Part shown: in pieces, positions 10,844-15,291 of the stretch
How positions within the stretch are numbered: position 1 is the first letter of the stretch
Layout of the letters: the number at the start of each line of letters is the position of its first letter
Translations under genes and position numbers: made by a program
Assembly (NCBI RefSeq): GCF_000379025.1
Contig: NZ_KB900623.1
Span: 46,334 to 110,333, forward strand
DNA length: 64,000 bases
DNA from: Orenia marismortui DSM 5156
GTDB taxonomy: Bacteria; Bacillota; Halanaerobiia; Halobacteroidales; Halobacteroidaceae
Direction: 5' to 3'
The notes under the pieces: generated by a model
What the model was told of the DNA's origin: nothing
The model's database searches: none
The model's input: only the letters and a program-made list of their open reading frames with translations

Positions 10844-11362
10844 ATGGGAGATATAATCCCACTACATCGAGGGGGAGAAAAAATGGCTAAAATAACTTAT
10901 TATGATATTGCGGATTATTTTATATCATTTTCTAATGTAACAAATGATTTAATTACAAATTTAAAATTACAAAAATTAGTTTATTATGCACAAGCTTGGC
11001 ATGTAACGATATTTAAAAATAGATTATTTGAAGGTGATTTTCAAGCATGGGTACATGGTCCTGTACTGCCTTCTTTATATGATGATTATAAAAAATTCAG
11101 ATGGAAACCAATTGAAAGAGATGATTTAGATGAAAAGTCTTTACAACAAATTAGGAATAAAATAGGTGAAGAAAAGACTGAGTTTATGGAAGAATTGATA
11201 GAAGAATATTTTACTCTTAGTGCTTATGAGTTAGAGAGGTTAACTCATGAGGAAGAGCCATGGAGAAAGGCGAGAAAAGGGTTAAGTCCTGATCAACCAT
11301 CTAGTAGAGAAATTCAGATTAGATGGATGAAAGAATATTATGATAAATTTAGGGAAATCTAA
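10844..11362 (+). CDS. Panacea-domain (SocA-like, DUF4065) antitoxin
   Basis: A 172-residue protein with the Panacea/DUF4065 layout: YDIADYFISFS, then TNLKLQKLVYYAQAWH (the hallmark KLQKL.YYaq segment), FEGDFQAWVHGPVLPSLYDD, a helical middle, and WRKARKG near the C terminus. Panacea proteins neutralise many different toxins and are always paired with one. Two starts are possible: ATG 10844 behind AAGGAGGTG (chosen) and ATG 10883 behind GAGGGGGAG. The next gene begins 1 bp after this stop, so the two form one translational unit. The antitoxin role is known for the family and inferred here. Confidence 0.8.
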   Translation: MGDIIPLHRGGEKMAKITYYDIADYFISFSNVTNDLITNLKLQKLVYYAQAWHVTIFKNRLFEGDFQAWVHGPVLPSLYDDYKKFRWKPIERDDLDEKSLQQIRNKIGEEKTEFMEELIEEYFTLSAYELERLTHEEEPWRKARKGLSPDQPSSREIQIRWMKEYYDKFREI

Positions 11363-12127
11363 ATGAGCAAATTAGGTATTAGCAAAACTCCGATTAAATC
11401 TAAAAGCAATCAATATAAACGTTCTAAAGAAGAAGTGCTTGCTAATTTAGAAGAAAATATAGCCTTTTCCTTTAAATATCTTAAATTCAGTAATAAATTT
11501 ACTATAAGCGAATGTGACACACATTATTTTGATCGACTTTTAAGAAGGCTTCAACTTTTAGGGCGGATGAAAATGGAAGATTTTCTTGATAAAAAGAAGT
11601 ATATTCAAATCTTAAGAAATCATAGAACCGATTGGGATAAAGAAGGAGTAACAGAGGACGGGTTTGGCCTATCATTAAGGGATGATATATCGGATGAACC
11701 TTGGCAATTTTCTGCTACAGGTAATAATAAGCACGGAAGAGTTCATGGTTTTATTATAGGTAATGTATTCTATATAGTTTGGTTAGACTATAATCATAAT
11801 TTAGATATTGGGAAAGATGGCAAGTGGAAAGTAGATCTCTCTAAAAGAACACCAAGAGCTAAATTGTTGGAAGAAATATTTACACCTGCCAGGGAAGAGG
11901 TTTATTTTAGCAATCCTGAAGAAATTAATAAAATAATAGATTATTATGTGGAAAAGTGTGATGAATGTGAAGCTTATATAGATATAGGACAATTTTGGTA
12001 TCACTGTGTATTTTGTAACGAAAAAACAGATGAAGATTTATTAAAAGTTAATGGTGTACATATTTGTTATGGTTGTTTAGAAAAAATTAAAAAAATAGAT
12101 GTTAAAGAGTCTGAAGAATCAGCGTAA
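11363..12127 (+). CDS. putative toxin partner of Panacea protein, zinc-binding tail
   Basis: A 254-residue protein whose ATG directly follows the Panacea stop. I do not recognise the family. Residues about 65-170 carry a compact domain with HRTDWDKEG, WQFSATGNNKHGRVHGFI and FYIVWLDYNHNLD; the last motif could form a small beta-sheet as in RNase-like or nucleic-acid-binding toxins. The C-terminal 60 residues have CDECEAY, CVFCNEK and CYGCLEK, that is three CxxC knuckles suggesting zinc binding. Toxin identity rests on pairing with the antitoxin. It is Lys- and Ile-rich and AT-rich, unlike the phage tail genes upstream. Confidence 0.5.
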   Translation: MSKLGISKTPIKSKSNQYKRSKEEVLANLEENIAFSFKYLKFSNKFTISECDTHYFDRLLRRLQLLGRMKMEDFLDKKKYIQILRNHRTDWDKEGVTEDGFGLSLRDDISDEPWQFSATGNNKHGRVHGFIIGNVFYIVWLDYNHNLDIGKDGKWKVDLSKRTPRAKLLEEIFTPAREEVYFSNPEEINKIIDYYVEKCDECEAYIDIGQFWYHCVFCNEKTDEDLLKVNGVHICYGCLEKIKKIDVKESEESA

Positions 12128-12291: not shown

Positions 12292-13191
12292 ATGGAGGAA
12301 AGTAGTTATGATATAATAAATTTAAATAAAGAAAAAAAATGGCAAAAAACAGGAGAGGCTTTCACTGGTAAAAGTGACTCTTATTGGATACAAAATGTTG
12401 TTAATAGACAGAAAGCTATATTAAAGATTCCTAAAGAACAAGAACGAGAAAATTCAATTGGCTATTCTGGCGAACATTTAGCTGAAAAATTAGCTTCAGA
12501 AATAGGTTTAAAATTAGGTTTGAATATGCCTGAAATAGATTTAGCCATTTATGATAATATAGAATGTTGTATAAGTTATTCTTTTTGTCAAGCGGGCGGT
12601 GTGGAACTTAAGGAAGGTCGAGAGATTTTAATACAAGATATAACAGAAAATGAAAATAGAGATAAATATACTGTAGAAAATATAGTGAGCCATTTACATG
12701 AATATGGATTAGTAGAAGAATTTGTTGAAATGATGCTTTTTGATGCCTTGGTGGGGCAACAAGATAGACATGAAGAAAATTGGGGAATACTCAATTGTCC
12801 AGGTGATCCTGTTAATAGGTATCAATTTGCTCCTATTTATGATAATTCTTCATGTTTAACAAGAGAAGTGCATAGATATAAGCATGGTATTAATATAAAA
12901 CTATATAATTCTGAGCATTTTAAATCTTATTTAAGAAGATCAAAATCATTAATAAGGATAGAATCTAATAATACTCATACTATATCACATTTTGATATGG
13001 TAGAATATTTATATGATAAATATCCCGAATTATGTATTTCTTTTAACGACAAGTTAAAAGGTATAACTAAAAAAGAAATAGAAGATATTATATCTAAGAT
13101 ACCTAGTGGTTTTATTTTAAATAATCATAGGAAAGTTATTTTAAAAGTCTTCTGTGCACGAAAAGAAAAAATTATGAATATAATAGAATAA
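12292..13191 (+). CDS. HipA-like (HipT-like) serine/threonine kinase
   Basis: A 299-residue protein with the HipA C-terminal kinase signature: a nucleotide-binding loop region (TGEAFTGKSDS), a candidate ATP lysine in AILKIP (K45), the catalytic segment QDRHEENWGIL (D158, N163) and the metal-binding IYDNSS (D184). The N-terminal subdomain of full HipA is absent, as in HipT of three-part HipBST systems. HipA kinases phosphorylate translation factors such as aminoacyl-tRNA synthetases; the target here is unknown. It is followed after 40 bp by a protein with a HipS-like N-terminal region, so the missing subdomain is probably supplied in trans. No HipB-type HTH gene adjoins. Confidence 0.75.
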   Translation: MEESSYDIINLNKEKKWQKTGEAFTGKSDSYWIQNVVNRQKAILKIPKEQERENSIGYSGEHLAEKLASEIGLKLGLNMPEIDLAIYDNIECCISYSFCQAGGVELKEGREILIQDITENENRDKYTVENIVSHLHEYGLVEEFVEMMLFDALVGQQDRHEENWGILNCPGDPVNRYQFAPIYDNSSCLTREVHRYKHGINIKLYNSEHFKSYLRRSKSLIRIESNNTHTISHFDMVEYLYDKYPELCISFNDKLKGITKKEIEDIISKIPSGFILNNHRKVILKVFCARKEKIMNIIE

Positions 13192-13231
13192 GTTGGGAAT
13201 GCTAACGTGAAGAAAAGGAGGATTAAATATT

Positions 13232-14104
13232 ATGAGTAAATACGAACATAATGGAGAACTTATTTTAACTTGGAAAAGTCCTTTCTCTAAAGAAAGAATT
13301 CCAATCGGAGAACTATGGGAAGAAAGTGGTTTATTCAAATTCAAATATATCCAGGGTTCTGATTGTGAAGAAGGGAATGTTGAATTAGCAATTAAACACG
13401 GTTTCATTCCTTTTGGTTCTTTAGAAAATTTAACAAGAGAATATAGTTCTGAAGAGATGTTTACATCTTTTTTAAATAGATTGCCTATTGATTGTCGCGA
13501 TAATGATCCGCTAAAAGTTTTGCATGAAACAGGAGGAGAGTTAGCTACTGATTCATTGAAGTTTATGAAAAAGTATAACTTAAAAGTAAAAGAAGTTAGT
13601 TTAAAGATGAGGGTTTCTGGATTTGAATTCATTGTTAAAGAAGAGGTTTTAAATACTTTGACAAGATATACAGAAATTATTTTAGAATTTGATAAAGACA
13701 ATTTATATGATACTAGTTCTATCGAAGTGTTAACAAAAGGATCTAAAAATAAGTTGGGCTATATTCCCGATAAATATAAAGAATATATTATCCCGTTGGT
13801 GGAAAATCAAAATTATAATATCAAAATTAATAATTTAAATAATAAAGATTTATTAATTGAAGTTTCTGGCAATATGATGGGGATTGACTCAAATAAAAAT
13901 TCTAGTTTGAATTATGATTATCAAGATATGAAGGATTATTTATGTGATAATCCTGTGGTTGATGAAAGTAAATTTGAAGGAAGAGAAGAGTCAAATTTTA
14001 GCTATAATAATATAGAACATAATTTTTTGAGGACAAGAACTGATATCAGTAGTGAATTTGTTGATATTCAAAGTGATGTTGATTTTGGATTGGAGGCTGC
14101 TTAA
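13232..14104 (+). CDS. HipS-like plus HIRAN domain protein with long tail
   Basis: A 290-residue protein behind AAAAGGAGG. Residues about 8-110 (LTWKSPFSKERIPIGELWEE; YSSEEMFTSFLNRLP; GGELATDSLKF) match the HipA N-terminal-like module found before HIRAN domains. Residues about 122-210 look like a HIRAN domain (LEFDKDNLYDTSSIEVLT, then KLGYIPDKYKEYI), a fold tied to recognition of damaged or unusual DNA ends. Residues 222-290 are a polar, acidic extension with no domain. Between a HipT-like kinase and a SecB-like chaperone it is the natural candidate for the kinase's inhibitor, and the tail for a chaperone-binding segment. Those roles are inferred. Confidence 0.65.
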   Translation: MSKYEHNGELILTWKSPFSKERIPIGELWEESGLFKFKYIQGSDCEEGNVELAIKHGFIPFGSLENLTREYSSEEMFTSFLNRLPIDCRDNDPLKVLHETGGELATDSLKFMKKYNLKVKEVSLKMRVSGFEFIVKEEVLNTLTRYTEIILEFDKDNLYDTSSIEVLTKGSKNKLGYIPDKYKEYIIPLVENQNYNIKINNLNNKDLLIEVSGNMMGIDSNKNSSLNYDYQDMKDYLCDNPVVDESKFEGREESNFSYNNIEHNFLRTRTDISSEFVDIQSDVDFGLEAA

Positions 14105-14107
14105 AAG

Positions 14108-14518
14108 ATGACAAATAATGCAAAAAGTCAATTTTATTTTGATGATTATAGAATTGAAAATATTAACTTTGAAATGAATAATGATTTTAAAAATGGAGAT
14201 GTAGATGTCGATTTTGATGCTGATTTTAATTTAAATATTTATGAGGAAGAAAATAAAGGTTTATTAAATATAGAGGTTAAATTCTGGGAAAATGCTGCTA
14301 AAGACAGTTATCCCTTTGAACTAAGCATTAGTATTATAGGTGTATTTTCTTCTGACCCTAGCATGGACAAAGAACAATTTGAGACAATGTGCAAATATAA
14401 TGGAGCAGCAATTTTATTTCCTTATATAAGATCTGCTATAACAGATATAACTAAAGTAGCTAATCTACCATCATTAATTTTACCTACTATAAACATAAGA
14501 AGACTTATAGATCAATAA
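14108..14518 (+). CDS. SecB-like chaperone (toxin-antitoxin-chaperone type)
   Basis: A 136-residue protein starting 3 bp after the HIRAN gene. It has the SecB pattern: four-stranded N-terminal half (FELSISIIGVF), then a crossover and helix with AAILFPYIRSAITDIT followed by LPSLILPTINI. The AILFPYIR...LP..N signature is typical of SecB and of solitary SecB-like chaperones. In Gram-positive-type genomes SecB homologues are mostly found in toxin-antitoxin-chaperone loci, where they protect an antitoxin with a chaperone-dependence tail. Tight coupling to the HIRAN/HipS-like gene supports that role. Identification is good; the client is inferred. Confidence 0.7.
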   Translation: MTNNAKSQFYFDDYRIENINFEMNNDFKNGDVDVDFDADFNLNIYEEENKGLLNIEVKFWENAAKDSYPFELSISIIGVFSSDPSMDKEQFETMCKYNGAAILFPYIRSAITDITKVANLPSLILPTINIRRLIDQ

Positions 14519-14554
14519 TATATTTTGTTTTTTTATTAAATTTACTGCTAAGTT

Positions 14555-14582
14555 AAGCCTCCTAAAATAATAGGAGGTTTTT
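14555..14582 (+). terminator. terminator closing the kinase/HIRAN/SecB cassette
   Basis: Stem AAGCCTCCT / AGGAGGTTT with an 8-nt loop, overlapping a run of T. The stretch 14583-14811 that follows is AT-rich with no gene; the sigK open frame begins at 14770. Confidence 0.8.
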
Positions 14583-14811: not shown

Positions 14812-15291
14812 GAAGATAATGAAGATCTTATTTCCATTGGTACTATTGGTTTGATTAAAGCAATTGATAGTTTCAACCCTAATAAGAATACCAGATTAGC
14901 CACTTATTCAGCTAGATGTATTGAAAACGAAATTCTGATGCATTTAAGAAAGACTAAGAAGTTGAATAATGAAAAACTAATGCATGAACCAATTGGCTCT
15001 GATAAAGAAGGTAATGAAATAAAATTGATGGATATTTTAGGTACTGCAATAGATGTTGTTAGTGATAAGGTTGAGTCTGCTATAAAAAAAGAAAAATTAT
15101 ATGAGAAATTAAAGGAGTTAGATCCTAGAGAGAGAAAGGTATTAGAATTAAGATATGGATTAAGTGATGGAGAAGAAAAGACACAAAGAGAAATTGCAGA
15201 AAGGTTAGATATATCACGCTCTTATGTCTCTAGAATTGAAAAAAAAGCTGTTAATAAATTGCATAAGAAGTTTAATATAGAAGGCTACTAG
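14812..15291 (+). pseudogene. sigK: 3' portion of sporulation sigma-K gene, 5' part missing (possible skin-type split)
   Basis: The frame is open from 14770. SigK-like sequence begins about 14812 (ED.EDLISIGTIGLIKAI), includes CIENEILMHLR and PIGSDKEGNEIKL, and ends with the region 4 helix-turn-helix (EKTQREIAERLDISRSYVSR). Sigma-K runs the mother-cell programme late in sporulation. PIGSDKEGNEI separates it from sigma-E. The pro-sequence and the region before EDLISIG are absent and there is no usual start (TTG 14851 is the first), so alone it cannot make a working sigma factor. In Bacillus subtilis and Clostridioides difficile sigK is split by the skin prophage and rejoined during sporulation. 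Here the right end of a prophage lies immediately upstream, in the matching orientation. The other half would lie left of this window. Confidence 0.7.

Follow-up and report, generated by a model that had tools for sequence, protein, structure and literature searches.

Two kinds of described system meet in the locus reported here. The first is hipIN, in which a HipI kinase is paired with HipN, a putative antitoxin made of a HipS-like and a HIRAN domain; Gerdes et al. (2021) put HIRAN forward as a sensor of phage DNA ends in this system (PMC8262856). PADLOC models the pair as PDC-M03. The second kind is the toxin-antitoxin-chaperone (TAC) system. TACs of the HigBA, MqsRA and HicAB types consist of a toxin, an antitoxin with a C-terminal ChAD and a SecB-like chaperone (PMC5105189, PMC6377645). 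Known ChADs are reported to share no mutual similarity, and ChAD/SecB modules can be grafted onto classical toxin-antitoxin pairs (PMC5105189). CmdTAC and MqsRAC provide phage defence in E. coli (PMC9519451), where CmdA ends in LAA, a ClpXP signal, is degraded via ClpP and is lost once capsid titrates CmdC (PMC11618068).

The locus lies within 64,000 nucleotides of Orenia marismortui DSM 5156, the whole stretch analysed, hereafter the window. An earlier note on this DNA had seen a HipA-type kinase, a HipS-like/HIRAN protein and a SecB-like chaperone in a row, and had known of no described system that joins a split HipA to SecB. This second point survives in part: in the literature searched, no publication was found that combines a Hip kinase and a SecB TAC, and HipA goes unmentioned both in a review of TACs and in a paper on chaperone addiction, but the kinase and HipS-HIRAN pair had already been described as hipIN. 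Both halves are known, one from hipIN and the other as the CmdTAC chaperone, and what is new is their union, that is, the third gene and the tail of the second.

Gene content and predicted folds

The three genes follow one another in the order first read from the sequence, with these features:

12292..13191, + strand: HipA_C Ser/Thr kinase, HipI-type, predicted toxin, without HipA N-subdomain 1 (Pfam HipA_C, E 4.6e-11; PADLOC PDC-M03A, 3.9e-72)
13232-14104, + strand: HipN-like protein, whole gene
13232..13876, + strand: HipN-like antitoxin core, HipS-like (residues ~7-115) and HIRAN (~117-215), the DNA-end pocket of which is changed and reads G130 F E132 F I134 (PADLOC PDC-M03B, 4.1e-39; fold matches)
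13877..14104, + strand: tail that ends the HipN-like protein, residues 216-290 with the stop codon, putative ChAD with degron-like end (low pLDDT; absent from 18 SecB-less HipN)
14108..14518, + strand: SecB-like chaperone of CmdC (PD-T4-9_C) type (Pfam SecB, E 3.8e-10; PADLOC PD-T4-9_C, 2.9e-21)
14555..14580, + strand: intrinsic terminator-like hairpin at the operon end

The genes form one operon closed by the terminator, as had been proposed. A gap of 40 bp separates the kinase gene from hipN and one of 3 bp separates hipN from secB (14104 to 14108), the Shine-Dalgarno sequence of secB (GGAGG) lying inside the 3' end of hipN.

The kinase has 299 residues, and its HipA_C match is above the Pfam cut-off. 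The closest solved chain is CtkA (3akj, E 8.6e-10), and the catalytic residues K45, D158, N163 and D184 are present and invariant across the family. HipA N-subdomain 1 is missing, in agreement with the original reading of the gene.

In the HipN-like protein, the AlphaFold model is confident for about residues 6-218. Residues 7-115 match HipS of HipBST (7ab3, Z 10.4) and HipA N-subdomain 1, while residues 117-226 match HIRAN folds (lp_0118, 3k2y, Z 11.7; HLTF, Z 9.3). Pfam gives a HIRAN match barely over its cut-off (E 9.8e-6). The PADLOC profile covers only residues 6 to about 215, and HIRAN is not C-terminal here: it is followed by a tail of 75 residues (the earlier note gave 70) that matches no Pfam family, has mostly pLDDT <45 and is predicted to be disordered over residues 220-290. 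The tail is net acidic, with 17 D/E against 6 K/R, and ends in DFGLEAA.

The third protein is SecB-like by Pfam, by PADLOC and by its predicted fold (pLDDT 92). At E <1e-6 the model resembles both E. coli SecB and 5mtw, the SecB-ChAD complex of M. tuberculosis, which is among the top matches. The structure prediction called for by the earlier note returns the HIRAN and SecB folds that it expected of the second and third proteins.

The locus shares features with both systems. As in hipIN, a small Hip kinase without N-subdomain 1 precedes a HipN that joins HipS-like and HIRAN domains, with the same order, domains and profile matches. hipIN, however, has two genes and a HipN of about 233-260 residues in relatives, whereas in the window the tail and a SecB gene are extra and the HIRAN pocket differs. 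As in TACs, a SecB-like gene stands directly downstream of the predicted toxin and antitoxin genes, and the putative antitoxin has a C-terminal extension missing in the SecB-less homologues compared; the folds of the predicted toxin and antitoxin are unrelated to those of the HigBA-, MqsRA- and HicAB-type TACs.

Two other class assignments were rejected. CmdTAC (PD-T4-9) shares a same-clade SecB-like gene in third position, an antitoxin with a disordered C-terminus ending in -AA and a place in prophage cargo. Its toxin is an ADP-ribosyltransferase and its CmdA is short, whereas the window has a HipS-HIRAN antitoxin core and, as first gene, a HipA_C kinase rather than CmdT, though the chaperone is CmdC-like. 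HipBST also splits HipA into a kinase without N-subdomain 1 and a separate HipS-like inhibitor. The window, in contrast, has no HTH gene in the operon and so no hipB, starts with the kinase instead of following the order hipB-hipS-hipT, and adds HIRAN and SecB.

Relatives of the kinase pair and of the chaperone

The triple was found in one genome only. The earlier note had looked to co-occurrence of the three genes in other genomes as a check, and here its expectation was disappointed. Our sampling took in part of Bacillota and of phage and plasmid records, and no second kinase-HipN-SecB operon was found in 59 genomes of the class, 398 sampled genomes of the phylum, smaller class sets of 37, 83, 63 and 3 genomes, or the viral contigs found. 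No close HipN turned up in plasmid and phage records, and when 84,980 species were scanned with a strict pattern for the close SecB clade, only three loci came back, all with CmdTAC-type SecB.

Relatives of each half do occur. Five other HipN genes in the 59 class genomes (233-235 residues) and thirteen more from sampled Bacillota and viral contigs have neither the tail nor a neighbouring SecB gene, so that both are absent from 18/18 other HipN compared. Tail and SecB were gained together in one lineage, which speaks for a functional link between them. The tail ends like most other SecB-linked antitoxins; the last residue is Ala or Gly in 16 of 18 of these and in 2 of 18 SecB-less HipN, in sets of related, not independent, sequences. 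Part of the -LEAA end may be dictated by a translation signal, as its GAG-GCT codons overlap the secB Shine-Dalgarno sequence. No convincing similarity of the tail to CmdA tails was seen (best shuffle p 0.026 of six comparisons).

The two halves differ in history. In the kinase tree, the window kinase clusters with the tail-less hipIN kinases of its class (support 88/91). The chaperone belongs to a clade of four (99/96), the others being CmdC of Halonatronum, of Halanaerobium and of a further member of the class, and Halonatronum CmdC is its sister (94/92); the final SecB tree leaves aside the HigBA chaperones, whose inclusion in an earlier 25-row version gave long branches. The nearest relatives of the window chaperone lie within CmdTAC operons of the same class. 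Across class and phylum, SecB genes of this type follow CmdT-like ADP-ribosyltransferase, HigB/RelE-like and other genes (toxin families read by eye). The two trees are most simply read as a hipIN pair having taken over its chaperone from a CmdTAC cassette.

One hipIN pair, in Halanaerobium (L017, 610-1486), has its kinase frame broken in two beside an intact HipN, a pattern of decay that is expected if the kinase is harmful.

Prophage setting

The cassette had been placed in prophage cargo, and its surroundings bear this out. Upstream are portal-, protease- and capsid-like genes (read by eye); tape measure, Dit and excisionase-like HTH genes are also present, and the cassette is the last cargo of the prophage, at its sigK-side end. 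Directly after it comes the 3' part of a split sigK-like sporulation sigma gene (profile positions 70-227; 14851-15291, coding from about 14800). The 5' part (profile 2-72) is on another contig, at G000:C6:209765-209977, beside a large serine recombinase. The prophage looks like a sigK-intervening, skin-like element as in Bacillus, with exact joins that are ambiguous given two similar prophages and an assembly of 9 contigs. In a Halonatronum prophage region, a CmdTAC cassette stands just after DUF5675-type lysis-region genes (L002/L005), the same placement as that of the window cassette.

The two prophages (G000:C6:198000-209722 and G000:C7:17545-31900) have closely similar early regions with RecT-like and SMC-like genes and a separate serine recombinase apiece; they may have recombined with each other or been misassembled. 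Within the window's cargo region, positions 10844-12127 hold a SocA/Panacea-domain antitoxin-like gene and, directly after it, one whose 254-residue product weakly matches the MAG6450 family and ends in a zinc-finger-like stretch; the two are a candidate second toxin-antitoxin pair.

Proposed control of the kinase

Given the gene content, the folds, the joint occurrence of tail and SecB and the two phylogenies, we think it likely that the cassette is a tripartite TAC module with a HipI-type Ser/Thr kinase as toxin, that it arose by a natural graft of SecB and ChAD onto hipIN, and that chaperone titration and antitoxin proteolysis are its trigger. From HipBST, CmdTAC and HigBA TACs we infer the inhibition by HipS, the chaperone dependence, the degron, the trigger, the target and the role in defence. 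The HipS-like domain would occupy the place of HipA N-subdomain 1 and so block the kinase. The tail would make the antitoxin rely on the SecB chaperone for folding, and SecB may also shield the -LEAA end from a ClpXP-like protease. If freshly synthesised phage protein, for example, titrated the chaperone away, in the way that capsid does in CmdTAC, degradation of the antitoxin would follow, and the freed kinase would phosphorylate an essential target, stopping growth and protecting the prophage's host population. The source of the SecB/ChAD module would have been a related prophage that carried a CmdTAC-like cassette. The proposal that the HIRAN protein is the kinase's antitoxin and that SecB acts through its tail fits everything seen.

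The same biochemistry could serve a different role. If the cassette were a chaperone-addicted module for prophage maintenance, the antitoxin, being labile, would disappear once the element was lost, and the kinase would become active. Toxin-antitoxin modules often stabilise mobile elements, and the cassette's location in an integrated prophage, at the end next to sigK, would suit this role. Against it, CmdTAC and MqsRAC, whose chaperone is of the same type, protect E. coli from phage (PMC9519451), and we regard maintenance as somewhat unlikely.

The trigger could also lie in HIRAN, as in the hipIN proposal (PMC8262856) and the earlier note: phage or damaged DNA ends would release the kinase, with SecB only a folding helper. 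The domain's fold match to HLTF favours such a sensor, and the GxRYY and NxYD motifs of the family profile align to GLRYY and NPYD of HLTF. These DNA-binding motifs are typical of most HipN and not defining; Actinobacterial HipN are without them. In our comparison with HLTF, which covered the two motifs, the window protein retains the second as N157-L-Y159-D160, but where class relatives have GWR(H/Y)Y it reads GFEFI. The equivalent of HLTF R71-Y72-Y73 (R71 being identified by counting back from N90/N91 of the profile alignment) is thus E132-F-I, whereas the Arg is kept in most relatives. As R71E abolishes 3'-OH end binding by HLTF (PMC11366124), the Glu at this position weakens the case for a DNA-end trigger. 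Divergence is also greater in HipN than in the kinase (end branch 2.19 vs 0.96). Judged from these residues, DNA-end sensing by the window HIRAN is doubtful, and a HIRAN sensor is in our view improbable; the HipS-like domain and the kinase, by contrast, seem to be intact. The earlier note had named DNA ends or loss of the chaperone as the trigger; by analogy with CmdTAC, the second would fit better.

Finally, we consider it improbable that hipIN is followed by chance by a functionally unlinked SecB, either a solitary one or what is left of a decayed CmdTAC, with the tail a product of drift: there is a single instance, its SecB was probably once a CmdC, orphan SecB genes exist (L008) and SecB relatives occur at prophage ends, which are sites of cargo exchange (L002), but the 3-bp spacing, coupled Shine-Dalgarno sequence, common terminator and intact, confident SecB fold argue against this, as does a tail with a TAC-like C-terminus that is present only where SecB occurs.

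If the cassette is a TAC with a kinase toxin, it is tempting to speculate, tentatively and a little short of calling it probable, that one lineage exchanged its sensor: the DNA-end-sensing HIRAN of hipIN may have been retired by an R71E-like change after uptake of SecB/ChAD from CmdTAC, leaving the kinase to be set free when a phage protein titrates the chaperone. Such a locus would be the natural counterpart, in a Hip kinase system, of the chaperone-addiction graft made in the laboratory, where a chaperone/ChAD module was moved by hand onto a classical toxin-antitoxin pair in 2016. TACs are known with endoribonuclease and ADP-ribosyltransferase toxins, and none with a kinase was found in the literature searched, so a kinase toxin would widen the class. 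The chaperone-free hipIN pairs of the same class offer a ready comparison between a possibly DNA-end-sensing and a putatively chaperone-gated version of one toxin, and the locus makes the evolution of TAC triggers directly testable.

The survey also brought up SecB-like genes in other company. At three loci (L111, 1849-2457; L106, 2040-2666, - strand; L099, 2450-3073, - strand) they stand behind unrelated proteins of about 200 residues ending in -SYAA, one of which matches the RAMP superfamily above the Pfam cut-off while two have no Pfam match; these are possible undescribed SecB-dependent systems. In two genomes of one family (L090, L091), a SecB-like gene overlaps the end of the gene for a 333-residue protein that belongs to no Pfam family and ends in SSSSAAA.
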